Both the position numbers and the translations under genes were made by a program. 34,578 nucleotides of DNA from Bacteroidia bacterium (GTDB taxonomy: Bacteria; Bacteroidota; Bacteroidia; B-17B0; Aurantibacillaceae), in contig JAEUTM010000319.1 of NCBI GenBank assembly GCA_016788025.1, positions 1 to 34,578 of the forward strand. Reading direction: 5' to 3'. Position 1 is the stretch's first letter, and every line of letters starts with the position of its first letter. The notes under the pieces are model-generated. The model was not told the origin of the DNA. It did no database searches and worked only from the letters and a program-made list of their open reading frames with translations. This document shows positions 10,011-33,394 of the stretch, piece by piece.

Positions 10011-11891
10011 CTAGTTATTTAAATTATCTCCACGCAATTCCCTGAAGCGTTTACGAGCCTCAACTGTGTATATACTTCCCGGATATTTCGTGAGCAACTC
10101 CTCATACGTTTGTTTTGCTTTCTCCTTATCTTTCAAGCTATTTTCATATAGCTCGGCCAGCTTAAACTGAGAGTCGTCAGCATAGAGATCGTTTGGATAA
10201 TATTCGAGTATGTTCCTGTAGGCCGCTTCTGCGTCGGTAAATTTACCAAGAGTTGAATAGATCTGAGCCTTTTTATAGTAAATATCGTCTCCAAGCGTAT
10301 TGGTACTGTAAAGAATATTAATACTGTCCATGCGCACAATTGCTTCGGAATATTTATGCTGTAGGATTAAAAGTTCTGCACTTGAAAATAATTTGAGTGG
10401 AGCATCATTGGTATCAACCCCGATCGCATCTGTAATTACCAGGCTCAGATCCAAAGCGTCATTAGCAATTAATTTGGTTGTAGCACCTTTTAAAACATCA
10501 GCCTGAGTTTTTGCCCAGGCAAAATCTCCGGCATAAAAACTAAGTTTCGCATTTCTGAATTTTGCTTCCTGTCCTATTGCTTCATACTTAAAATCTTTTT
10601 CAACCTGCGAATATAAAAGCGACGCCTCCCAGATCTCCCCTGAAACAAGGTTAATGTCAGCAAGTAATATTTTGTATTCTGATTTTATCAGGGGTTCTAT
10701 TCCCGGTTGACTTACAAAATCGGAAAGCAGAACAATAGCTTCCTCAGACTTATTAAGGTAAAAAGCTTTCAGGTAAGCAAGATTCTTTAGAATATTTACA
10801 TTCATAAAATTGCCTTTGTACTTCTCGTTTGCCTGGTTAAGCTCGTGTTCCAGCAAAAGCAATTCTTCTTTCGAAGGCTGCGACTTCTGTGTAACCGCCT
10901 GATATTTGGTATTAAGATTGTCTATTAATGCTGCGTCATAATAAATATTTGATGGTCCTTTTTGGACAATGTAATCAAAACAACGCTGTGCAGTCTCCCA
11001 CTGCTTATTACTCATGCATATCTTTCCAAGCTCATAAACCCTCTGTCCGTCTTCAGCTAATCGTTTATCCAAAGCCTTAGACTGTACAAATGCTCCGTCA
11101 AAATCGCCCTGTTGTTTTTGGATAAAAATGAGAAATTCACTTAAAACGACCTTGTCTGGGTGCTTCTGAATGCGTTTTTGCAATTCCTGTTTGAGGAGTG
11201 GATTTTTTATTCCTCCCTGTTCATCGTCATAACCCAATGAGTTTTGAAGTTGCATCTGCACGGTCTGAAGCTCAGAGTCACGAAACTCAAGTGCATCAAG
11301 GTACTCGTTTACCATCGAGGTAAGATCATTCTTTGCTTTAAAAACTTCAGCGCGCTCGTAAAAATAAGGGTAGTCAGGGCTTGTGCGTTTTGCTTTGTCA
11401 TAAACCTGTAGAGCATATTCAAAGAGGTTTTCCTCTTTAAAAGCTGTCGCTAAATTTTCTATGTATGGCTGAACCGGATGAAGATCTTTAATGGCTTTTT
11501 CATAACTTTCCTTCTCCTTTTTTGGATCATCCATTAATTTGTAAATGTGCCCAAGGTTTACGTATAGGTAAACATCCAGCTTACTTAATTTCAATTGCTT
11601 TTTGGTGATCTTTTCTGCTTTAGAATATTCTTTAGCTCCCAGCAGGCTTTTGTAATAATAGCTATACCAGGCAAAGGCGTTCTGATCATAAAGTTCAGCA
11701 AAATAAACATTGGCTTTATCGTATTCTTTTTGCTCGAAATAATACATGGCCATTTTGTCCGGGCCCTCCGCCTTTTTTGCTGGGATAGGCGTGATGCCTA
11801 CCTGAGCGTGGATATTCAGAAGCGAGGTAGAAAGAAAAAGAAATAATCCTGTTATTTTCGAATAGAAAGCCAAGCGTTTAGATTTACACAT
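10011..11891 (-). CDS. Exported tetratricopeptide-repeat protein
   Basis: The 626-residue product has an N-terminal signal sequence (about residues 1-30, ending N-I-H-A-Q) followed by tandem helical TPR units over nearly the whole length. The last ones, near 540-620, show the A-E-x-x-Y-R-N-I-L-x-Y-Y-P-N pattern of YbgF/BamD-like TPRs. It probably acts in the periplasm as a protein-protein scaffold; no enzyme motif is visible. A GTG at 11919-11921 would add ten residues before the signal sequence, so the ATG at 11889-11891 is preferred. The gene ends in TAG, showing that TAG is an ordinary stop in this genome. It follows the anti-sigma-type ATPase gene by about 70 bases on the same strand. Confidence 0.8.
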   Translation of the reverse strand: MCKSKRLAFYSKITGLFLFLSTSLLNIHAQVGITPIPAKKAEGPDKMAMYYFEQKEYDKANVYFAELYDQNAFAWYSYYYKSLLGAKEYSKAEKITKKQLKLSKLDVYLYVNLGHIYKLMDDPKKEKESYEKAIKDLHPVQPYIENLATAFKEENLFEYALQVYDKAKRTSPDYPYFYERAEVFKAKNDLTSMVNEYLDALEFRDSELQTVQMQLQNSLGYDDEQGGIKNPLLKQELQKRIQKHPDKVVLSEFLIFIQKQQGDFDGAFVQSKALDKRLAEDGQRVYELGKICMSNKQWETAQRCFDYIVQKGPSNIYYDAALIDNLNTKYQAVTQKSQPSKEELLLLEHELNQANEKYKGNFMNVNILKNLAYLKAFYLNKSEEAIVLLSDFVSQPGIEPLIKSEYKILLADINLVSGEIWEASLLYSQVEKDFKYEAIGQEAKFRNAKLSFYAGDFAWAKTQADVLKGATTKLIANDALDLSLVITDAIGVDTNDAPLKLFSSAELLILQHKYSEAIVRMDSINILYSTNTLGDDIYYKKAQIYSTLGKFTDAEAAYRNILEYYPNDLYADDSQFKLAELYENSLKDKEKAKQTYEELLTKYPGSIYTVEARKRFRELRGDNLNN

Positions 11892-11961
11892 AAAGATACT
11901 TGCAAAATCCGGAAAATACACCCGCAGCCTTGATTTTGGCTTTTTTTAATTTAGGATCGGA

Positions 11962-12369
11962 CTAACTGTTGAAGCCAAGCAGTACGCGTTTGCCGCCTTG
12001 CTCAAACTGAATGGAATCAGTCAGGTTCTGCATTAAAAACACGCCGCGTCCGCTTACTTTATCGATGTTGGCGGGGTCTGTAGGATCTGGTAGGTTGGCA
12101 TAGTCAAAGCCGGCGCCTTCATCCGTAATGGAAAAGATCAATTTATTATTTTCGGATTCAAAACCAATCCTTACAAATTTATCAGGATCATTTTTGTTAC
12201 CGTGTAGAATAGCATTATTAACCGCTTCGGTAACTGCAATAAGCATATTGCCATAGCAGTCGTCGTTTACGCCATAAACCTGGCAAACATCCTCCACTAA
12301 CCTTTCAACCAACCTCAGGCTCTGTGTGTTCGAATTTATCTTTAGGGTCTGGTATTTAGTTGGTATCAT
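11962..12369 (-). CDS. Anti-sigma-factor-type ATP-binding protein (HATPase_c, RsbW/SpoIIAB-like)
   Basis: The 135-residue product is a stand-alone GHKL ATPase domain. The N-box T-E-A-V-N-N-A-I-L-H-G-N is near residues 48-59, the D-E-G-A-G-F motif near 88-93 and the G-R-G-V-F-L-M motif near 113-119. This architecture is that of serine kinases that bind sigma factors or phosphorylate STAS antagonists. No STAS, PP2C or sigma gene is in the window, so the partner is unknown. The start codon overlaps the stop of the DUF4175 gene by four bases (ATGA), indicating tight translational coupling and a possible functional link. Confidence 0.85.
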   Translation of the reverse strand: MIPTKYQTLKINSNTQSLRLVERLVEDVCQVYGVNDDCYGNMLIAVTEAVNNAILHGNKNDPDKFVRIGFESENNKLIFSITDEGAGFDYANLPDPTDPANIDKVSGRGVFLMQNLTDSIQFEQGGKRVLLGFNS

Positions 12370-15300
12370 TCTTTATTCAAACTATTAAAATATTCGTTTA
12401 CTTTTTCCTTATAATAAGGGGTAAGAGAAGGGGGAACAGTATTTAACAATTCCATTTCCTTTTCTTTGATTCTTTTATACTCTAAAAATTCGACAGGGTT
12501 GCTTAAATTTTCGTTTTTTGCCTCGTTACTTTTACGCTGTTCGTCTTGCTCTCTTTCCCTTTCTGCCTTTTCACTTTCAAGCAGTCGGCTTAATATTTCC
12601 TGCTGTCTCTTCATGGTTTGACTTGTAATTTGCTTATTTACAAGGTCTTTTTCCGTTTCTTCCATCATATTGGCAATATCCCCGCCTGGATTTTGACCTT
12701 TATTTTTCAATTTATCCATCAAGGCCTGCATTTGGCGTCTCAAAGCTTCCTGCTGCGCGGCCATTTTCGCAAACTGTTCGCTGCTTCCGGGCATACTAAG
12801 CCCGTTTTGTCCGTTTTTACCAAGACCCTGACCGGGTTTATCGCCCGGTTTATTACCTGGTTTCTGGCCGCCTTTTTCAAGCGCGTCTTTCAGTTGCTGA
12901 AGTTGCTGATTTAGTTGCTCCTGCAGTTTACGCATGCTGCTCGCTGGCATGCCATTGCTTGACGGGTTTTTACCGGATCCGGTACCTGGCTTTTTACATT
13001 TTCCCGGCTTTGACGATTTACTTTGCTGCTGCTGTTTCATTTGCTGCTGCATTTGCTCAAGGGCTTCATTTAAAAGCAGCGCAAGGTTGTTCACCGAAGT
13101 CATGGTAGACTGCATGCGAATAGTACTTTCCCCGGGATTTCGCTCCGCAAGAGCTTTTACGGTCTTTTCCATGTTCAGATGAATAGAACTTATCTCGCGG
13201 TTCACAATAGAACTAACCTGAGGCGCACGTTTACTTAATGCAAGTAAACTATCTTCTATTATTTTACTATCGTCCTTAAGCTTGTTTTGTTCTTTAGGGA
13301 TTTCCACATATTGAGGATTGTCGATCCGGGTTTTTGGAAGTTTTTTTATGAGTTCTTCCTGGGCAAAAGACAGGTTTACAAGGTTTTCGAGGATCTGTCT
13401 CAAGGTCTGAGCGTTCTCTTCCTGTTGCTGTTGCTCTTGCTCCTCCATCGATTTCTCCATCTGCTCCTTCATTTCCTGCATTTTCTGGCTTGCGCTTTTC
13501 TGCGACTTAGCAGCGTTACTTTTGTTGTTCTTACCAAGTTGGTCTGAGCTGTTCTGAAGATCTTTACTTATTTCATCTTGCTTTTGCTCGTTGTTTGGAA
13601 GTTCATTAGGTTCTTCCAGTTGTTTATTCTTTTCCTGCAGTTCCTTTAAATCTTGTTTTAGCTGTTCAAATTCTTTACTTATCTCATCCTGCTTTTTTTC
13701 CAGCTCTTTCGAATCAGTTTTCTTATCGTTTTTATCTCCAGAATTTTCGGCGCTCTTGTTATCTTTATTTTCTTTTGAATCTTCCGCCTTCTTACCCTCC
13801 GTTTCTTTATTCAACGCATCCTCCTTTTTCTGGAGCTCATCCAGCTTATCGATTGCGTTTTGCATTTTTTGCTGCACTTCAAGTTGCTTAAATGCCTCAA
13901 GATTTCTATCGAGTTCTTTCTCTATGTCTTTATTGCTCAGTTTGAGTTCATCCAACTTCTCCTGGACCTGGTTCTTGTCCAGTTTCTCCATCATTTTATT
14001 CAACTCCTCAAAGAGTTTTTTCATTTCAGGAGTCATAACGTTTTCAAACAGTTCCTCAAGTTGCTTCTGTTTTTCCATGATGGACTCGTCCGTTGGCGTA
14101 AACTCGCTTTGTTGCTTGTTGTTTAGCTCATTTTCATTTTTAACTTCGTTTATCTTGTTCTGCAGTTCTTGTTGTTTTTTAAGCAACTCTTCCAGCTTCT
14201 TTTTTTCTTCATAACCAAGCTGCTTTTTGTCGTTTATTTTCTTTGACAACTCGTTTATATCCTTTTGAAGTTGTTTGGCCTTCTTAATACTTTCCTCAAG
14301 ATCCTTTTTAATTTCCGAATTATTCTTTTCTGTGTTCTTGTTTATCTCATCTCTGCTTGGTGCTTTAAACACCATCAATCTCGTTTTTGAAGATTTAGGA
14401 CCCGAGACCCCGTCATTGTCAAATACTTCAAAATAATATTCAACCTTATCGCCAGGTTGCAGATTGTATTGAGCCGCATCGAAAAAGTAATAGTAGGGTT
14501 GACTTACCTGCGATCTTTGAATGTTGATAGGAAAAGCGCCACTTGTTTCAATCGCTTTACCGTTGCTATCGGTACCCATTTTGGTGAAATGGAATGTGAG
14601 CCGATTAAACCCGTAGTCGTCTTTAAGCTGTCCGCTAAAATAGATGTTTTTTGGATTTAAGGAGTCCGGTGTTTCAGTGACATCAATCTGCGGAAATTGA
14701 TCAGGAACGACGCTTACATTGTAGGAAACAGAATCCGGTGCATTTAATACAAATTTGTTGGAGGTTTTTACAGTGTAATTATTGTTGTGAAGAAAGCGTC
14801 TTGAAAACTGAAATTGATTCTCGCCGTTTCGCGTTGGTTCAGCAAGGCTATCATTGAATCGTAAACTGATCTGGTCGGTGTTTTTGGTATTAAAAACCCA
14901 ACTCACTTTCGTACCCTGCGGAATCTGGAGGTCCCCGGTATTGGCAATACTCTCATTAGGTTTATTAAGATAAGAAGGATATACCAATTGCAGATTAAAT
15001 TGAAGTAAGGATGGTTTAGGAATTACCTGCAGTGTATAAGGTTTCGAAAGGAAGCCTGCTGCCCCCAGCTGGAAGTCGAAGGTATTTTGAACGTTTGGGA
15101 AAGTATACGTAAACAAAGAATTATTTTGTTTCTCAAGTTTATATTCTATTCCTTTCAGTTCCACATAAACCTCGTTAGGAAGTTCTTCCCCTGTTATTTT
15201 CACTTCGAGGTGATAGTCCTGGGTTTGAAGAGCCTGAAGTTTAGGGTTTTTAATTTCGAACCTGAACGGCATTTCCTTTTCATAGTATGTCTGGTAATTT

Positions 15301-15857
15301 ACCAGGCGCGTAGTGCTTTTGGAAATGATCTGGGGCCAAATGATAATTAAAACACTTGCGAATAGGAACAAGGGGAGAATGTATTTGAGATATTTTCTAT
15401 TCTCGGCAATATTGATTGCAGCGGTAAAGGGAACTGGTTTTAATTCATTAATCTTCTGACTGATTCCTGCAAGCAAAAGGTCATCTGAACCTGTCATGCT
15501 TTTGCTGCTCTGCAACTGAAGCACGTTTAGAAGTTTATCCTGCACATTTGAAAAATGACTCCCTATAATATCAGCTGCCTGATCGTAAGAAATAATTTTT
15601 CCGATTTTGTTAAGTTTGAGGACCGGAATGGCGATATATTTTATCACCACGCCAGTTGTTACGCCTAAAAATCCGAAAAATAAAAAAGCTCTAACTGCAG
15701 TATTAAACTCTCCGAAATATTCCAGCAAAACAACACTTAGAAACGCCGTTAATAAAATCCCACCAGAGTAGATTAGTCCCTTTACAAGTTGATTCCTATA
15801 ATACTTGCGAATAAACTGATCGAGTTTCTCAATAAGAATATGGTTTGCCGAGTTCAA
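12366..15857 (-). CDS. DUF4175 family membrane protein with long coiled-coil region
   Basis: This is a 1163-residue protein. The N-terminus has hydrophobic segments at about 24-46, 57-79 and 152-173, then a beta-rich, probably periplasmic region to about 500. From about 500 to 1150 it is charged, Lys/Glu/Gln-rich and helical, with long coiled-coil segments, a run of Gln near 855, and Gly/Pro/Lys-rich linkers near 1000 and 1040. This layout matches the DUF4175 proteins of Bacteroidota, whose function is unknown. The start is TTG (15855-15857): a TAG lies in frame five codons upstream, no ATG follows nearby, and the opening residues L-I-E-K-L-D-Q-F-I-R-K-Y-Y are those expected at the family N-terminus. 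It is coupled by a 4-base overlap to an anti-sigma-type ATPase. Confidence 0.85.
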   Translation of the reverse strand: MNSANHILIEKLDQFIRKYYRNQLVKGLIYSGGILLTAFLSVVLLEYFGEFNTAVRAFLFFGFLGVTTGVVIKYIAIPVLKLNKIGKIISYDQAADIIGSHFSNVQDKLLNVLQLQSSKSMTGSDDLLLAGISQKINELKPVPFTAAINIAENRKYLKYILPLFLFASVLIIIWPQIISKSTTRLVNYQTYYEKEMPFRFEIKNPKLQALQTQDYHLEVKITGEELPNEVYVELKGIEYKLEKQNNSLFTYTFPNVQNTFDFQLGAAGFLSKPYTLQVIPKPSLLQFNLQLVYPSYLNKPNESIANTGDLQIPQGTKVSWVFNTKNTDQISLRFNDSLAEPTRNGENQFQFSRRFLHNNNYTVKTSNKFVLNAPDSVSYNVSVVPDQFPQIDVTETPDSLNPKNIYFSGQLKDDYGFNRLTFHFTKMGTDSNGKAIETSGAFPINIQRSQVSQPYYYFFDAAQYNLQPGDKVEYYFEVFDNDGVSGPKSSKTRLMVFKAPSRDEINKNTEKNNSEIKKDLEESIKKAKQLQKDINELSKKINDKKQLGYEEKKKLEELLKKQQELQNKINEVKNENELNNKQQSEFTPTDESIMEKQKQLEELFENVMTPEMKKLFEELNKMMEKLDKNQVQEKLDELKLSNKDIEKELDRNLEAFKQLEVQQKMQNAIDKLDELQKKEDALNKETEGKKAEDSKENKDNKSAENSGDKNDKKTDSKELEKKQDEISKEFEQLKQDLKELQEKNKQLEEPNELPNNEQKQDEISKDLQNSSDQLGKNNKSNAAKSQKSASQKMQEMKEQMEKSMEEQEQQQQEENAQTLRQILENLVNLSFAQEELIKKLPKTRIDNPQYVEIPKEQNKLKDDSKIIEDSLLALSKRAPQVSSIVNREISSIHLNMEKTVKALAERNPGESTIRMQSTMTSVNNLALLLNEALEQMQQQMKQQQQSKSSKPGKCKKPGTGSGKNPSSNGMPASSMRKLQEQLNQQLQQLKDALEKGGQKPGNKPGDKPGQGLGKNGQNGLSMPGSSEQFAKMAAQQEALRRQMQALMDKLKNKGQNPGGDIANMMEETEKDLVNKQITSQTMKRQQEILSRLLESEKAEREREQDEQRKSNEAKNENLSNPVEFLEYKRIKEKEMELLNTVPPSLTPYYKEKVNEYFNSLNKE

Positions 15858-15934
15858 TAGAAAGGAGGACTATATATACAAATTTAAGCTTCCTGGCCAG
15901 TTTTGCCTTCCTGCAATTGTTAAATAGTGATAAG

Positions 15935-17106: not shown

Positions 17107-17928
17107 TCAGAACTTCTGAATTCCGACTGAATCCTGGAAAGCCGACATTAATCGGCCATTAACGTACCTCACGTCTCGAACAATCTTACCATTTGGAACC
17201 TCTTTACAGGCTTCTTCAAAAAGACGATGATTGTAACTACATAGATTCCCGTCTTTTTTGTAATAGATAATATCATCGCTTACCTGGAATTGTTTCAGAC
17301 CCTTCAAAGAAATGACTTTGCTAAAAGCGCCAAAAATATCGAACACATAAATTCCGGTTTCCGGCGAGTTAAGGTAGAGAAAACCATTGTGTTCGATCAT
17401 GTAATTTGGTGTGATATTAGCCTGGAGGATTTGTTTCAGATTTCCTGTGGCAGCAATTTTTTTTGAACTTTCATTGAATCTTACAAGTTCGTTGTTCCGC
17501 TTATCGTAAACCCAGAAACTATTGTTAGCCCCGGCGCAAACGAGTTCAACCTGCTCGTATCCAAGCTTCTCGAGGGCAACCACGTCGCTATTTTCCGAGA
17601 GCTGGTTGTCGAGGAATAAAATTTTCTGAAAGTCTCTGTAATAAATCAGCAGCTTTAAGGGATTTGTAACATCAATTGTTGTAATCGTCCCCAATTTCAA
17701 GTTGCTGTACCTTGCAAAGAACTTTCCGGAAGCCAGATATTTCATCAATTCGTCGTCCTTCAGGAGGTAGCTGTTCCCGATATTATCCATATAAGCAACA
17801 TCATACCTGGCTTTAATTGTGATTAAGCCGCCATCGCTTTGCCTGATAAAGCCACAAAATAGCACCGAAAAACATAAAAGTAAGCCCCGGCCCCCTGCAT
17901 TAAATAAAATATTTAATCGATTGTTCAA
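17107..17928 (-). CDS. Exported protein of unknown function, possibly beta-propeller
   Basis: I recognise no named family. The 273-residue product has a hydrophobic N-terminal segment (about 14-28) that could be a signal sequence. It is followed by repeating short beta strands with patterns such as N-S-F-W-V-Y-D, G-I-Y-V-F-D-I and D-I-I-Y-Y-K-K-D-G, which suggest a small propeller. The start is TTG (17926-17928), overlapping the TGA stop of the GH3 gene by four bases. No ATG lies before the hydrophobic segment, so this start is the best available. The overlap places it as the last gene of the ispD-polX-GH3 operon. Its role there is unknown. Confidence 0.65.
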   Translation of the reverse strand: MNNRLNILFNAGGRGLLLCFSVLFCGFIRQSDGGLITIKARYDVAYMDNIGNSYLLKDDELMKYLASGKFFARYSNLKLGTITTIDVTNPLKLLIYYRDFQKILFLDNQLSENSDVVALEKLGYEQVELVCAGANNSFWVYDKRNNELVRFNESSKKIAATGNLKQILQANITPNYMIEHNGFLYLNSPETGIYVFDIFGAFSKVISLKGLKQFQVSDDIIYYKKDGNLCSYNHRLFEEACKEVPNGKIVRDVRYVNGRLMSAFQDSVGIQKF

Positions 17929-19442
17929 ATTGAATTGAGCTTTAGAATTTCTTCAAGCACCTTCCTATCATTGCTAAGTCTGGGAATTTTAAACTGGCCT
18001 CCTATTTTATTGTTCTGTTTTTGCCATTTATAAAATCCCCCTAATGGAATAGAATGAACCTTTGGATAGTGCAGGACAAAATTATTATATCTTTTCGCCT
18101 CATAGTCGCTATTCTGCCTTTTAAGGCTTTCGTCAAGTATCGAAACAAAATAGTCGAAATTATTAGGTTCTTTTTCAAATTCAATAAGCCACTCGTGTGT
18201 GCCCGAATTATTCTCCATAAATACCGGGGCAACGGTGTACTCTTTTACCCGGGCATGTGTTTTTTCGCATGCGCTGGCAATTGCCGAGTCTGTGTTATGC
18301 ACCATAAGCTCTTCACCAAACACATTGATGTGTTGTTTTGTACGTCCCGATATTTTAAACCTATATGGATTTGTACTGGTAAAGTGTATTACGTCTCCCA
18401 ACTGGTAACGCCAAAGCCCCGCATTTGTTGTGATGACCATGGCATAATCAATCCCTGTTTTTACCTTATCGAGATGGATAATCCTTTCATTCACACTTTC
18501 AGATCCAAGATCTTTGATATCAATAAACTCGTAGAAGATGCCATAATCCAACATTAGCAACATTTCGTCGCTTTCAACCTGGTCCTGAATTCCAAAAAAG
18601 CCTTCAGATGCATTATAAAGTTGCATATAATTTACCTTCGGATTGCAAAATATCTCGGCAAATTGATCCTTGTAAGGGGTAAAACTAACTCCCCCGTGAA
18701 AATACACTTCAAGATTCGGCCATACTTCATTAATCGAACTAACTCCTTTCTTTTGGAGAATTCTTTTTAGAAGGACCAGCATCCAACTTGGTACGCCTGC
18801 AATGCTTGTAACATTTTCATTCATCATACTGTCCGCCATCCGCTCAAGTTTACTTTCCCATTCGTCCATTAAAGCGATGCTAACGTCTGGGGCTCTGAAA
18901 AAATCAGCCCACATAGGAAGGTTTTGAATGATGATTGCGCTCACGTCTCCATGGAATGAATTGTGACTTCCAAATTGATCTTCTTTGTAACTACCGCCAA
19001 GAGCAAGATTTTTCCCGGTAAATAATTGCGTATCGGGATGATTATAACAGTGTAAGGTCACCATATCCCTTCCTGCGTTATAGTGACAACCATCCAGGCT
19101 CTCTTGGCTTACTGGCAAAAATTTACTTTTATCGGTAGTTCCGCTGCTTTTCGCAAACCATTTTATTTCCGAATGCCAGATGATGTTTTGTTCTCCGCGT
19201 CTGGTTCTGTCAATGAGTGGTTTCAGGCTTTCATAGTCATTCAGAGGGATAAATTTTTTAAATTGCTCGTAATTTTCTATTTCATCGAAATTATATTGCT
19301 GGCCGTATTCTGTGTTCGCTGCGTCCCTGACCAGGCTATACATCCACTCCATTTGAACGTCTATCGGGTACTTAATAAAAAGCTCGATCTGATGCATTCG
19401 TTTTTTCATCAGCCAGCTTGCTATGGAATTAATCAGCGGCAT
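17925..19442 (-). CDS. GH3-family acyl-adenylating protein
   Basis: The 505-residue product matches the GH3 fold of the ANL adenylating superfamily. The phosphate-binding motif S-S-G-T-T-D-K-S-K-F is at 99-108, Y-N-A-S-E-G-F-F-G (near 275) matches the second adenylate motif, and Y-Q-L-G-D-V-I-H-F followed by S-G-R-T-K-Q-H-I-N carries the late catalytic segment. Plant members conjugate amino acids to auxin or jasmonate through an acyl-adenylate. Bacterial members are uncharacterised in most lineages, so the acyl substrate and acceptor are unknown. It begins with ATG overlapping the polX stop by one base (TAATG) and ends overlapping the next gene by four bases, so it belongs to a tight operon. 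Confidence 0.85.
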   Translation of the reverse strand: MPLINSIASWLMKKRMHQIELFIKYPIDVQMEWMYSLVRDAANTEYGQQYNFDEIENYEQFKKFIPLNDYESLKPLIDRTRRGEQNIIWHSEIKWFAKSSGTTDKSKFLPVSQESLDGCHYNAGRDMVTLHCYNHPDTQLFTGKNLALGGSYKEDQFGSHNSFHGDVSAIIIQNLPMWADFFRAPDVSIALMDEWESKLERMADSMMNENVTSIAGVPSWMLVLLKRILQKKGVSSINEVWPNLEVYFHGGVSFTPYKDQFAEIFCNPKVNYMQLYNASEGFFGIQDQVESDEMLLMLDYGIFYEFIDIKDLGSESVNERIIHLDKVKTGIDYAMVITTNAGLWRYQLGDVIHFTSTNPYRFKISGRTKQHINVFGEELMVHNTDSAIASACEKTHARVKEYTVAPVFMENNSGTHEWLIEFEKEPNNFDYFVSILDESLKRQNSDYEAKRYNNFVLHYPKVHSIPLGGFYKWQKQNNKIGGQFKIPRLSNDRKVLEEILKLNSI

Positions 19443-26617: not shown

Positions 26618-29347
26618 TTATTTTTTTGGTTGAGCTCCCTCAATTGCAAATTCAATTTTTACATCATCACCATCAATTCCAAAATCGTGACGGTTAAAAG
26701 TTGCTTCTCCCTCAAAACCTGCAACATTCATGTTTGGATCCCATTGCGGTTGAGTAAGTCCAGCATAATTAAATGTTAAGCTAAGCTCTTTTGTTACTCC
26801 TTTCAGCGTTAGTTTTCCATTCGCAACATAAGCGTAGTTACCGCCTTTGTCGTTCTTCTGAATATCGTTAGCTTCGAAAATAGCTTGTGGATATTTAGCA
26901 ACGTCAAAAAATTCAGGTTTATCCTTTAGATGACCATCACGCATTGAATTCTGAGTGTTTAAACTCTTCATATCCATACGTATGAATATTTTCGGTCCGT
27001 TTGCATCATCGAAATTCACGTAACCGCTGTCGATATTAATTGTTCCTTTTACGTTAGTCACGATATGTTTTACACTAAACGCAACAGAACTGTGTGCGCC
27101 ATCAACAACATAAAGCCCTTTAACTTCTTCGATCGGTTTTGGAGCAACCATAGAAGCACTGTCAATTGCAACTGTTGAAGGATCCTGGTGTTCAAGCGTC
27201 ATATCAGAGCTGGTTACAGCAATGTATGGAGCAATAACCAACGAAACAATACTCATCAATTTGATAAGAATATTCATAGATGGTCCGGAAGTGTCTTTAA
27301 AAGGATCTCCTACTGTATCACCCGTTACTGAAGCTTTGTGCGGTTCCGATTTTTTGTAATAGGTTTCCCCGTTGATAACCACTCCTTTTTCGAACGATTT
27401 TTTAGCGTTGTCCCATGCACCACCTGCATTGTTCTGGAATATTCCCATTAGCACACCACTAACAGTAACACCTGCTAATAAACCGCCAAGAATTTCTGCA
27501 GAACTAACACCTTCAAATACGCCTTTCAGGCCAAATCCGATAATTACCGGCGTAATTAAAGCGATTGCCCCAGGCATTAACATTTCGCGGATAGACGCTT
27601 TGGTGGAAATAGCAACGCATTTTTCATACTCAGGTTTTGCTTTGTATTCCATAATTCCAGGAATTTCGCGAAACTGACGACGCACTTCCTGAACCATATC
27701 CATAGCAGCACGACCAACGGCTGCTATTGCAAGCGCAGAGAATATAAAAGGGATCATTCCGCCCACAAAAAGGGCAGCTAACACAGGAGCCTTGTAAATA
27801 TCTATTGCACCGATTCCGGCAACTCCCACAAAGGCAGCAAATAAAGCCAGGGAAGTAAGTGCTGCAGAAGCGATCGCAAATCCTTTACCGGTAGCCGCGG
27901 TTGTATTACCTACAGCATCCAGGTTATCCGTACGTTCACGAACTTCAGGAGGCAACTGACTCATTTCGGCAATACCGCCAGCGTTGTCTGCAATGGGCCC
28001 GAAAGCGTCAATAGCTAACTGCATTGCAGTAGTTGCCATCATACCTGCGGCAGCAATTGCCACGCCGTAAAGACCTGCGCATGAATAAGAACCAACAATA
28101 CCTGCTGCAAGAACTAAAATCGGAGCCACGGTAGATTTCATACCTACTGATAAACCCCCAATAATGTTTGTAGCGTGACCCGTAGCTGACTGTTGAATAA
28201 TAGAATTAACCGGTTTTTTGCCCATTGCGGTAAAATACTCAGTGATCATACTCATTAGGGCACCAACAACAAGACCGATGAAAATAGCACCGAACACCCC
28301 ACCTTTTGTAAATTCAAATCCCCGTAGGGTCAGAGAGTCAGGAAGCATCCAGTTAACGAGGAAATAACAAGCCACAACCGTTAAAATAATAGAGGACCAG
28401 TTCCCAAGATTTAACGCGTTTTGAACGCTGTCTTTTTCACCTTTCACACGAACAAAAAACGTCCCAATAATAGAGAAGATAATTCCAAGACCAGCGATTA
28501 CCATTGGCAATAAAATAGGCGATAAGCCATTGAAATGATCTGTTTTTGCGTCAATCTCCTGACCTAAAACCATGGTTGCGAGAATTGTCGCTACATAAGA
28601 GCCGAATAAGTCAGCTCCCATACCTGCAACGTCACCCACATTGTCCCCTACGTTATCGGCAATAGTTGCAGGGTTACGAACATCATCTTCCGGAATACCG
28701 GCTTCCACTTTACCAACTAAATCTGCACCAACATCCGCTGCTTTTGTATAGATCCCCCCACCAACACGCGCAAACAAAGCAATTGATTCAGCACCCAAAG
28801 AAAACCCGGTTAAAACCTCAATAGCAGTGCTAACCTGGTGAGTTCCCAGGTTAGAGAACATTGCCAGGAAGACAATAAATAAACCGCCCAAACCCAACAC
28901 CGCAAGACCAGCAACGCCCAGCCCCATTACAGTACCTCCTGTAAAAGAAACCTTAAGAGCTTTCGCTAAACTCGTGCGGGCCGCCTGAGTTGTGCGAACA
29001 TTAGCCTTGGTTGCTACGCGCATTCCAATGTATCCCGCCGTTGCAGAAAAAACTGCACCAATAATGAACGCTAAGGAAATAATCCAGCTTGAATGAATCT
29101 CCTTACCATTCACCTCATGTATTGTTCCGCTCCATGCTAACAGTGCAGCAGCAACTATTACGAAATAACTTAAAATCTTCCACTCGGCTTTCAGAAAGGC
29201 CATTGCACCGTTAGCAATATAACCTGCCAACTCCTTCATATTTGCATCGCCCGCATCCTGCTTGCTAACCCAGGCAGATTTTACGGCCATTACGATCAAT
29301 CCAACGATCCCAAGAAGCGGGACTAAATAAATAATACTGTCGCTCAT
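26618..29347 (-). CDS. hppA: Membrane-bound ion-pumping pyrophosphatase fused to a YceI domain
   Basis: The first 710 or so residues form a complete membrane pyrophosphatase, which couples PPi hydrolysis to H+ or Na+ export. PPi-binding D205[10 protein letters not shown], the Asp-rich D-N-V-G-D-N-V-G-D motif (231-239) and [10 protein letters not shown] (676-685) are intact, and there are many membrane helices. [10 protein letters not shown] (480-489) matches the K+-dependent class. A linker of about 35 residues follows, then a YceI domain (about 745-905) with V-D-G-A-H-S-S-V-x-F-S-V-K-H and L-T-L-K-G-V-T-K. YceI proteins are periplasmic lipocalin-like isoprenoid binders. The usual pyrophosphatase ends near 700 residues, so the addition is unusual. 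The frame is continuous with one stop. Known topology puts the C-terminus outside the cytoplasm, which fits a periplasmic YceI. Confidence 0.93.
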
Positions 29348-31090: not shown

Positions 31091-32620
31091 ATGAATAAAA
31101 GGCTCCTTACCTTCATTTCCGTTTCCTTTTCAGTAGCCCTTTTGGTCCTGATCTGTTTCCAGATTTATTGGATCAGAAAGGATTTTAAAGTACGTGAGGA
31201 ACTATTCAGAAATAAAGTAGACGAGGCCTTGAATGTAACGTCTGTCAAACTAGAGCGATTAGATACGCGATCGAACTACACCAAGATCACAGAACGTTTC
31301 CAGGGCATGTTCAGGCCTAATTATAAAGGCAAAGGCCTTGGCTTCAGTGTTAAAGAAGAGGTAAATATAGACAGCAGCGGACACCAGATAAGTCGCTTCA
31401 CACAGAAAGATCTTACCGCCGACTCCACAATTAAATTCGACGCATCATCTGTAAACTTTCTCGATTACATAAAGGAACAGAGCAAACTGCAATCTCAAAG
31501 CGGCGATCTGATAAACCAAAACGGCGGAAATAGTTTTTTCGATTTCAGTTTTACAAGAAAATATTATCCCGGGCGAAAACAAAAAGTTGATACAGTTCTC
31601 TTAGACTCACTTCTAAGAAGTGAGCTTATTAAACAAAAAATTACCGCGCACTATATTTATTATTTAACCTCACTTTATCCTGGCAGCCCGCATCACAGCG
31701 ATCTCAGTCAGGCTGAAAATATGTCGGATTCGCTTGGAGTTGACTATTACACGGTTAATCTTGCTCCAAATAACACGTTCATCGATCCTGAATATCTTAT
31801 TCTTTATTTCCCTACCCAAGACCAGGATGTGTTCAAACAAATGTGGCCTTTCCTTATCACTTCCATTGTTGTGATCTTCATCCTGATTTTTTCTTTCTAT
31901 TTCATCACGGTTAATAACCTAAAACAAAAGAAACTCTCGATAATAAAGAACGACTTCATTAATAACATGACGCATGAGTTTAAGACACCAATCAGCACTA
32001 TCTCTTTAGCCAGTGAAATGTTGGGGGACGACAGCATTTCACAAACGCCTGAGAAAAGGCAGCGTTATTTGAAGATGATTCGTGATGAAAACAAACGCTT
32101 GAGTGTACTGGTTGAAAGCATCCTCCAGACGTCGATATTGGATAAAGGAGAATTTAAACTCAAATTAAGCGAAGTAGACGTTCACGATATTATCAACAGT
32201 GCGATTAATAATACACATTTGCTCATTACACAACGTCAGGGTGTTGTAAACACATCGCTAAAGGCACAGAAATTCAAACTGCAGGCAGACAAGGTTCATT
32301 TAACCAACATTATTTTTAATCTGATTGACAATGCCATAAAGTACTCTAAAGAAACCCCGGAGATAACAATCTCTACATACAATACTGCCGAAGGCATTAT
32401 GATCCAGGTAAGAGACAACGGTATTGGTATTTCTAAAGAAAATCAACGCAAAATCTTCGATAAATTCTATAGGGTACCTACAGGCAACGTTCACAATGTA
32501 AAAGGCTTTGGATTAGGTCTTTCTTACGTTCTTGCCGTATTTTTAAAGCACAAAGGTACTATTTCTGTTAATAGCGACCTGGGCAAGGGCAGTACTTTCA
32601 ATGTTCATCTTCCAATTTGA
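31091..32620 (+). CDS. Sensor histidine kinase, RprX-like
   Basis: The 509-residue product has a membrane segment at about 7-28, an extracytoplasmic sensor region of about 220 residues without a recognised domain, and a second membrane segment at about 252-274. The kinase core follows: HisKA with the phosphorylated H295 in M-T-H-E-F-K-T-P, the N-box L-I-D-N-A-I-K-Y near 415, D-N-G-I-G-I-S near 444 and G-F-G-L-G-L-S near 475. It should autophosphorylate and pass phosphate to the regulator encoded 72 bases downstream. The arrangement and the regulator's similarity to Bacteroides RprY suggest an RprX-type envelope sensor. The signal is unknown. Confidence 0.9.
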   Translation: MNKRLLTFISVSFSVALLVLICFQIYWIRKDFKVREELFRNKVDEALNVTSVKLERLDTRSNYTKITERFQGMFRPNYKGKGLGFSVKEEVNIDSSGHQISRFTQKDLTADSTIKFDASSVNFLDYIKEQSKLQSQSGDLINQNGGNSFFDFSFTRKYYPGRKQKVDTVLLDSLLRSELIKQKITAHYIYYLTSLYPGSPHHSDLSQAENMSDSLGVDYYTVNLAPNNTFIDPEYLILYFPTQDQDVFKQMWPFLITSIVVIFILIFSFYFITVNNLKQKKLSIIKNDFINNMTHEFKTPISTISLASEMLGDDSISQTPEKRQRYLKMIRDENKRLSVLVESILQTSILDKGEFKLKLSEVDVHDIINSAINNTHLLITQRQGVVNTSLKAQKFKLQADKVHLTNIIFNLIDNAIKYSKETPEITISTYNTAEGIMIQVRDNGIGISKENQRKIFDKFYRVPTGNVHNVKGFGLGLSYVLAVFLKHKGTISVNSDLGKGSTFNVHLPI

Positions 32621-32628
32621 TAATAAAT

Positions 32629-32668
32629 GTTAAATTTGTTAAATTTAGGTCTTTAGTGCCTATCTTTA
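32629..32668 (+). promoter_or_regulatory. Promoter with tandem repeat before the response regulator gene
   Basis: The 9-base unit GTTAAATTT occurs twice in direct tandem (32629-32637, 32638-32646). The junction contains TTTG (32635-32638), which can serve as a -33 element. TATCTTTA (32661-32668), one base off TAnnTTTG, follows at 22 bases spacing. OmpR-type regulators bind direct repeats near this position, so the repeat is a candidate autoregulatory site. This is inferred from position and symmetry only. Confidence 0.45.
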
Positions 32669-32692
32669 ATTTACTATTTAACATTTTAAACC

Positions 32693-33394
32693 ATGGATAC
32701 TGTTAAAACTAAAATTCTGTTGGTTGAAGACGATCCCAGCTTAGGACCTCTTCTTCAGGAATACTTAGACGCCAAGGGATTTGAAACCAAATTAGCCGAT
32801 GACGGCAAAAAGGGCAGTGATTTGTTTTTTAAAGGTTCTTTCGACCTGCTGCTTCTTGATGTTATGATGCCTGTAAAAGATGGCATTACACTTGCAAAGG
32901 AAATAAGGGTTGTTGACAAAAACGTACCTATTATTTTCCTTACTGCAAAGAGCATGAAGGAGGATACAATAGAAGGATTTAATGCTGGTGCAGATGACTA
33001 CATTACCAAGCCTTTTAGTATGGAAGAATTGTTGGCCAGGGTAAACGCTGTTTTACGAAGAACAAATAAAGTTCGTTCTTCTGAAGGTGAAGATTCTGAT
33101 TTTAAAATCGGTAGCTACCAATTTAATTCTGAAAAGCAGATTCTTCAGCATAATGGCATCGAGCAAAAACTAACAACTAAAGAAAGTCAATTGTTACGCC
33201 TTCTTTGCATCCATAAGAACGATGTTTTGGATCGGACCTTTGCTCTGAAATCTATCTGGCATGACGACAACTATTTTAATGGCCGAAGCATGGATGTATA
33301 TATAGCAAAACTTAGGAAATATCTTAAAGATGATTCCAAAGTCGAGATCATAAACATTCATGGTAAAGGTTTTAAATTACTAGTGAATCAATAA
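32693..33394 (+). CDS. rprY: OmpR-family response regulator, RprY-like
   Basis: The 233-residue product has a receiver domain with the acidic pair E12/D13/D14, the phosphorylated D56 in L-L-L-L-D-V-M-M-P, T84 and K106 in T-K-P-F-S, and a C-terminal winged-helix DNA-binding domain (about 132-230) ending with G-K-G-F-K-L. Its receiver strongly resembles Bacteroides RprY, including the A-G-A-D-D-Y-I-T-K-P-F-S-M-E-E-L segment. It is predicted to be phosphorylated by the kinase immediately upstream and to control envelope or stress genes. It has its own candidate promoter and a strong terminator. Confidence 0.9.
   Translation: MDTVKTKILLVEDDPSLGPLLQEYLDAKGFETKLADDGKKGSDLFFKGSFDLLLLDVMMPVKDGITLAKEIRVVDKNVPIIFLTAKSMKEDTIEGFNAGADDYITKPFSMEELLARVNAVLRRTNKVRSSEGEDSDFKIGSYQFNSEKQILQHNGIEQKLTTKESQLLRLLCIHKNDVLDRTFALKSIWHDDNYFNGRSMDVYIAKLRKYLKDDSKVEIINIHGKGFKLLVNQ

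Follow-up and report, generated by a model that had tools for sequence, protein, structure and literature searches.

A stand-alone RsbW/SpoIIAB-type ATPase beside a DUF4175 membrane protein in Bacteroidia: a probable partner-switching kinase with its partners scattered over the genome

A 135-residue ATPase of the RsbW/SpoIIAB type, encoded directly behind a DUF4175 family membrane protein in a Bacteroidia bacterium (assembly GCA_016788025.1), is probably the kinase, or anti-partner, of a partner-switching system whose genes are scattered over the genome. Both genes lie on contig JAEUTM010000319.1, which was analyzed over its entire length of 34,578 nucleotides (C34 in our numbering; hereafter the window) and belongs to an assembly of 4.13 Mb in 628 contigs, 91.6% complete and 5.1% contaminated. 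The ATPase is a real and apparently little-studied regulator within a conserved neighborhood. The features of the gene pair are as follows:

12366..15857, (-): DUF4175 family membrane protein, 1163 aa, TTG start (list of open reading frames; PF13779)
11962..12369, (-): stand-alone RsbW/SpoIIAB-type HATPase_c_2 protein, 135 aa (PF13581; PDB profile match; fold match)
12366..12369, (-): ATGA stop/start overlap of the DUF4175 and ATPase genes (read from the sequence)
12196..12228, (-): N-box of the ATPase, E48 to N58 (EAVNNAILHGN), with E48, N52, H56 and G57 kept in 80/80 loci

A first-pass annotation had described these two genes as coupled through an ATGA overlap, and this is confirmed: both open reading frames (ORFs) are present, and in AAAGAATGATACC the stop codon TGA of the DUF4175 gene overlaps the start codon ATG of the ATPase gene. 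It had also seen no STAS or sigma gene nearby, in agreement with which no STAS, SpoIIE or sigma domain occurs in the subset of window proteins run against Pfam and NCBIfam.

Class, catalytic residues and predicted fold of the ATPase

Kinases of the RsbW/SpoIIAB kind are stand-alone HATPase_c_2 domains of about 130-160 aa, and the ATPase has this form, with a Pfam PF13581 match that spans residues 13-130 of its 135 (90.1 bits, E 1.5e-25). Searched against the PDB, the ATPase profile matched RsbW (6m36, E 1.1e-16) and SpoIIAB (1til, E 3.2e-13), and the only other match at E 1e-5 or better was 9qih. The AlphaFold2 model (predicted local distance difference test score, pLDDT, 89.9) superposes on SpoIIAB with Z 18.5 and a root-mean-square deviation (rmsd) of 2.0 over 127 residues, and on RsbW with Z 17.7 and rmsd 1.4 over 105 residues. 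Among the 50 matches listed, histidine-kinase domains reach Z 8.9 at most, which places the predicted fold nearer to SpoIIAB and RsbW. The domain match, the PDB profile matches and the fold match together support the anti-sigma/RsbW class proposed at first sight of the sequence.

Conservation was read from 80 loci, the best 80 from one genome scan with a profile of 17 ATPases (profile A1). E48, N52, H56, G57, D83, G85, G87, D95, P96, G107 and R108 are invariant in all 80, and G109 is kept in 79. The N-box Glu and Asn and the glycine boxes are therefore present at every locus, and they align with those of RsbW and SpoIIAB; we take them to have the ATP and Mg roles familiar from this class.

The Leptospira protein of PDB entry 9qih, which is titled LvrC and gives SenB as molecule name, has an ATPase domain that shares the motif DP...SGRG(I/V)FL with the ATPase family; we found nothing in the open-access literature on SenB together with partner switching. 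TAL effectors, which headed a phmmer search with the ATPase alone, were rejected as sums of many tiny repeat matches, each with an i-Evalue of at least 170 in the part listed.

Candidate partners in trans and their co-occurrence

The genome that carries the ATPase also encodes both a STAS-only protein with a candidate phosphorylatable serine and SpoIIE-type PP2C phosphatases. Its one STAS match is a 115-aa protein made up of the STAS domain only, which bears the motif NSSGL and is encoded directly after a Fur-family gene. SpoIIE matches number 15 among 15 candidates scored, of which 13 lie in ORFs of 405-770 aa and 10 in ORFs of 516-770 aa, the extra length of the latter being taken to represent sensors. 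HATPase_c_2 matches number 16, eight of them over the cut-off, and among these eight only the window's ATPase is short; a further short frame (163 aa, contig C573) falls below the cut-off. In the 30 loci most like this STAS, a biased set that includes the genome's own, a Fur gene lies directly upstream of STAS in 28, and the first serine of the motif N-S-[S/N/T]-G is kept in all 30.

Two details concern the loci and candidates themselves. The Fur-family gene and the STAS-only gene that follows it occupy positions 675-1493 of locus L070, on contig C494 of the window's genome. In G286, another genome of the class, 89 first-look SpoIIE candidates were obtained, of which 15 were scored.

Presence of each component was called in 198 genomes of the class, with profile A1 at E 1e-8 or better for the ATPase and the STAS of the window's genome as query at E 1e-3; four weak SpoIIE matches (G021, G033, G228 and G320; E 1.3e-6 to 9.4e-4) were set aside, which lowered the SpoIIE count from 164 to 160. 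Genomes outside the match lists were counted as negative, and since three DUF4175 candidates and at most 15 SpoIIE candidates were scored per genome, absences and high counts are soft. On these terms the ATPase occurs in 148 genomes, STAS in 154, SpoIIE in 160 and DUF4175 in 185. All of ATPase, STAS and SpoIIE are found together in 140 genomes, none of them in 37, and a partial set in 21. The ATPase coincides with STAS in 141 genomes (7 ATPase only, 13 STAS only, 37 neither; phi 0.72) and with SpoIIE in 147 (1 ATPase only, 13 SpoIIE only, 37 neither; phi 0.81), while STAS and SpoIIE coincide in 153 (1 STAS only, 7 SpoIIE only, 37 neither). With DUF4175 the ATPase is shared by 145 genomes (3 ATPase only, 40 DUF4175 only, 10 neither; phi 0.32). 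That the ATPase tracks STAS and SpoIIE makes a partner-switching role likely. The contrast is visible within family f2, where G122 has all three parts, G002, G080 and G138 have none, and G099 has the ATPase and SpoIIE with no STAS match. Twenty-one genomes with all three parts, counted by hand, have a single SpoIIE match. G209, G212 and G292 are among the weakest ATPase matches (E 6e-25 to 6e-16), and theirs may be paralogues.

Several observations weigh against a partner-switching kinase. The ATPase stays below the NCBIfam equivalog cut-offs, scoring 52.1 of 145 bits for RsbW, 45.1 of 135 for SpoIIAB and 41.4 against a third cut-off of 155, and for this reason we do not name it RsbW or SpoIIAB. 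The second serine of the STAS motif is replaced by N in four of the 30 loci and by T in one. Seven genomes have the ATPase with no STAS match and 13 have STAS with no ATPase; genomes under 90% complete make up 2 of the former and 9 of the latter. Other classes of the phylum have RsbW-like ATPases too, at sites apart from DUF4175, so the window's class is not special in having one; phylum-wide, 167 of 198 genomes have an ATPase match and 143 of 198 a DUF4175 match.

Kinship among the genomes bears on the counts as well. A DUF4175 tree, used as a stand-in for a species tree, covered 93 genomes (all three parts in 62, none in 23, a partial set in 8); on it the ATPase changes only six times, and the genome counts are thus not independent. 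The tree is built from a gene of the region itself and holds only genomes that have DUF4175. Across five independent pairs that differ in the ATPase, SpoIIE follows the ATPase in an average of 3.9 and runs opposite to it in none (p 0.125), and for STAS the averages are 2.3 in the same direction, 0.0 in the opposite direction and 2.7 tied (p 0.5); a smaller tree of 47 rows holds too few events. Co-loss on the tree is consistent in direction and rests on few events, because of which the Fisher values of the co-occurrence tables are not to be read as independent evidence.

A proposed partner switch and its target

From the domain class, the catalytic residues, the predicted fold, the gene order and the co-occurrence, we infer phosphorylation, binding, a target and a signal along the following lines. 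The ATPase would bind ATP and phosphorylate a serine in the NSSG motif of the single fur-linked STAS protein, from which SpoIIE-type phosphatases would remove the phosphate. STAS without its phosphate would then hold the kinase and release the target of that kinase, perhaps a region-3 sigma factor (either a paralogue or the housekeeping one), perhaps a protein of another kind. DUF4175 would share with the ATPase an old gene cluster and overlapping translation rather than a proven function.

Sigma factors were counted as region-3 matches, a count that leaves ECF sigmas outside and is uncorrected for kinship. Genomes with all three parts have exactly one such match in 41 of 140 cases, two or more in 97 and none in 2; in the 37 genomes with none of the parts the count is one in 28 and two or more in 9. 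The window's genome has three. Genomes with the system thus more often have extra region-3 sigmas, but the system does not require them. A fixed sigma-B-like target is not supported by these counts.

A more elaborate version, which we put forward tentatively and hold to be doubtful, is a widespread and little-described bow-tie stress switch of the window's class, in which many sensor-bearing SpoIIE proteins would feed into a single fur-linked STAS and a single orphan RsbW-type kinase and from there act on a housekeeping sigma or a non-sigma target, the cytoplasmic loop of DUF4175 tethering the kinase to the envelope. If a partner switch of the kind proposed here exists, the environmental bacteria that have it, a large group, possess a stress system that is easily overlooked because its parts are scattered, and one that is testable at once with three kinds of gene. 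In the titles and abstract openings of the open-access literature, a coverage that takes in few subscription journals, we found no Bacteroidota or Flavobacterium partner-switching system of such a kind.

Gene order, the DUF4175 protein and competing explanations

Conservation of the pair in relatives, which the first-pass annotation had offered as a check, is borne out. At 78 of the 80 loci the gene immediately upstream of the ATPase is DUF4175, the exceptions being L212, cut by a contig end, and L203, which has no DUF4175 upstream; the adjacency is not chance. The culturable Roseivirga spongicola and Marinoscillum furvescens are among the carriers of the pair. With ybeY, mnmG and exonuclease III-like genes recognized by reading of the sequences, ybeY follows within 600 bp downstream of the ATPase at 48 of 80 loci (at 30 another gene is next, and two end too early), and mnmG is present within the stretch at 37. 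No DUF4175 was found within 1.5 kb of the ATPase at the 14 loci read in other classes of the phylum (L016-L022 and L025-L031), so that the pairing belongs to the window's class. DUF4175, ATPase, ybeY and mnmG form an old gene cluster, in which DUF4175 is probably only an old neighbor of the ATPase.

Neighborhood alone does not make a unit, and the pair comes apart. Of 13 DUF4175 loci with no ATPase neighbor and enough downstream sequence, 12 have ybeY within 660 bp; L035 was left out of this count, since the ATPase of its genome lies on a different contig. At ten of these loci, all in family f5 (which we guess to be Flavobacteriaceae), ybeY overlaps DUF4175 or begins at most 4 bp away with no ATPase between; L042 has an unassigned 183-aa frame between DUF4175 and ybeY, and L046 has another gene downstream. 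DUF4175 thus overlaps whichever of the two genes comes next, which makes the ATGA overlap weak evidence for a complex. Conversely, in G076, G111 and G194 the order ATPase-ybeY-mnmG stands behind an exonuclease III-like gene, with no DUF4175 match among the three candidates scored per genome. Across the class, 40 of the 50 genomes that lack the ATPase have DUF4175, and 3 of the 13 with no DUF4175 match have the ATPase. The two genes do not behave as an obligate unit, gained and lost together: they are lost independently, in both directions.

The DUF4175 protein itself divides into three predicted regions, all encoded on the reverse strand:

15300..15857, (-): residues 1-186, transmembrane (TM) hairpin, cytoplasmic helical loop (about 79-157) and third TM segment (hydropathy and charge, AlphaFold2)
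14364..15266, (-): residues 198-498, about three tandem Ig-like beta domains, predicted periplasmic (AlphaFold2; Foldseek, VIA-align)
12372..14354, (-): residues 502-1162, long charged helices or coiled coil with low-confidence stretches, predicted periplasmic (AlphaFold2; topology)

Its Pfam match (PF13779, 65.3 bits against a cut-off of 27.3) covers profile positions 201-429 of 825 only. Averaged over 77 sequences, the family has three hydrophobic segments, near 31-44, 60-77 and 163-174, with a mean net charge of +3.0 before the first, 0 in loop 1, +1.9 in loop 2 and 0.1 after the third. By the positive-inside rule, this pattern suggests that the N-terminus is inside and that everything beyond residue ~178, the coiled coil included, is periplasmic. 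The AlphaFold2 model (mean pLDDT 77.7; predicted template modeling score, pTM, 0.46) runs from a helix hairpin through a lower-confidence helical loop and a long third helix into about three Ig-like domains, after which long helices fill the rest of the chain. Foldseek and VIA-align gave, among the matches listed, almost only generic tandem Ig/Fn-type matches over 193-500, plus a few long-helix or composite entries from Foldseek, a comparison that barely covers the helical parts. The anatomy read at first from the sequence, a membrane anchor followed by a probable periplasmic region and a coiled coil, therefore holds with the anchor refined to three TM segments and with the helical region of ~660 residues periplasmic by prediction. 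With most of the protein predicted to be periplasmic, about 100 residues are left to meet a cytoplasmic ATPase.

These data bear on the strongest competing explanation, a unit of DUF4175 and the ATPase dedicated to envelope sensing, in which the periplasmic Ig domains and coiled coil would sense strain and the cytoplasmic loop would hold or release the ATPase. Direct adjacency in 78 of 80 loci and the ATGA overlap speak for it, as does the strong conservation of the cytoplasmic loop at residues 101-150, which few other parts of the protein equal. The independent losses, the small predicted cytoplasmic share and the gap of 5-123 bp, with no overlap, between the two genes at 9 of 11 other loci read stand against it, and phi is 0.32 with DUF4175 versus 0.72 with STAS and 0.81 with SpoIIE, although DUF4175 is so common that its phi has little room. 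We consider such a unit unlikely. The first-pass annotation had offered both ideas; its partner switching is supported as a likely role, with STAS and SpoIIE co-occurring in trans, and DUF4175 as a dedicated sensor is not supported, in view of the independent loss, the f5 ybeY loci and the periplasmic coiled coil. On the favored explanation, DUF4175 would be a protein of the inner membrane, separate from the ATPase and bearing Ig domains and a coiled coil on the periplasmic side, and the data suggest that it merits study in its own right as a ybeY-linked envelope protein.

Alternatively, the ATPase could be a kinase for other substrates, outside partner switching, as the related domain in the Leptospira protein 9qih (SenB; entry title LvrC response regulator) might indicate. 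This seems quite improbable, since its fold match to SpoIIAB and RsbW is far above that to histidine kinases and since it co-occurs with STAS and SpoIIE. That the ATPase regulates its commonest downstream neighbors, YbeY and MnmG, in rRNA and tRNA maturation is highly improbable: ybeY is next in 48 of 80 loci, mnmG lies within the stretch in 37, and ATPase-ybeY-mnmG persists in the three genomes with no adjacent DUF4175, but the window's genome keeps the ATPase with its ybeY elsewhere, on a different contig on which a serS-like gene (read from the sequence) lies two genes upstream of ybeY, and where the ATPase is lost ybeY remains beside DUF4175.

Other features of the window

The gene downstream of the ATPase had been suggested to supply an outer component of the pair:

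10011..11921, (-): TPR protein, 636 aa, no conserved member of the pair (Pfam TPR; neighborhood count)

The counts do not support this role, as the TPR gene lies within 900 bp downstream of the ATPase at only 5 of 80 loci, all from the nearest relatives, and ybeY follows at 48. At L228, L231, L243 and L244, a relative of the TPR gene stands behind ybeY and mnmG, at a distance of ~5 kb downstream from the ATPase, so that the gene belongs loosely to the old neighborhood; this suggests an older, longer cluster that included it.

Upstream of the DUF4175 gene, TAAATTTG at about 15879-15886 (-) ends 21 nt before the start codon, with about 0.08 occurrences expected per 200 nt, and resembles the Bacteroidota -7 element TAnnTTTG. 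No TTG or TTTG element was found at the spacings tried from it, and promoter and terminator scans scored below the shuffled mean.

Three further loci were noted. A single ORF at 26618-29347 (-) joins a membrane H+ pyrophosphatase (H_PPase, residues 14-705) to a C-terminal YceI-like domain (746-903), a fusion that to our knowledge is unusual. A GH3-family protein at 17925-19442 (-) has all three Pfam domains GH3, GH3_M and GH3_C; the family is best known from plant hormone conjugation. At 31091-33394 (+), a histidine kinase adjoins a response regulator with a Trans_reg_C domain.

Comparison with known systems

The word DUF4175 led, in the open-access literature searched, to one paper only, on AdvA of Acinetobacter baumannii, which is reported there as a critical cell division protein with a DUF4175 domain (PMC7481262). 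AdvA shares with the window's protein the Pfam name and predicted TM helices, a likeness at the level of description, and the paper therefore says little about the window's DUF4175 protein. For the ATPase, Pseudomonas aeruginosa SiaB-SiaC offers a similar kinase fold (Z 12.1), far weaker than the match to SpoIIAB and with 5% identity. SiaB-SiaC is an example of a non-sigma output.

In Chlamydia trachomatis, according to a review, RsbW-RsbV1-RsbU form a partner switch with no sigma-B and control the housekeeping sigma-66 (PMC8256260). This sets a precedent for a housekeeping target, but in another phylum; here such a target is a possibility, with 41 of the 140 complete sets accompanied by a single region-3 sigma.

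The RsbW-RsbV-RsbU and SpoIIAB-SpoIIAA-SpoIIE systems of Bacillus comprise the same three domain types, and the ATPase shares their kinases' catalytic residues and, in its model, their fold. Unlike in Bacillus, no STAS, SpoIIE or sigma gene was seen beside the window's kinase, which stays below the NCBIfam equivalog cut-offs, and the genome combines a single kinase and a single STAS with 15 SpoIIE matches.

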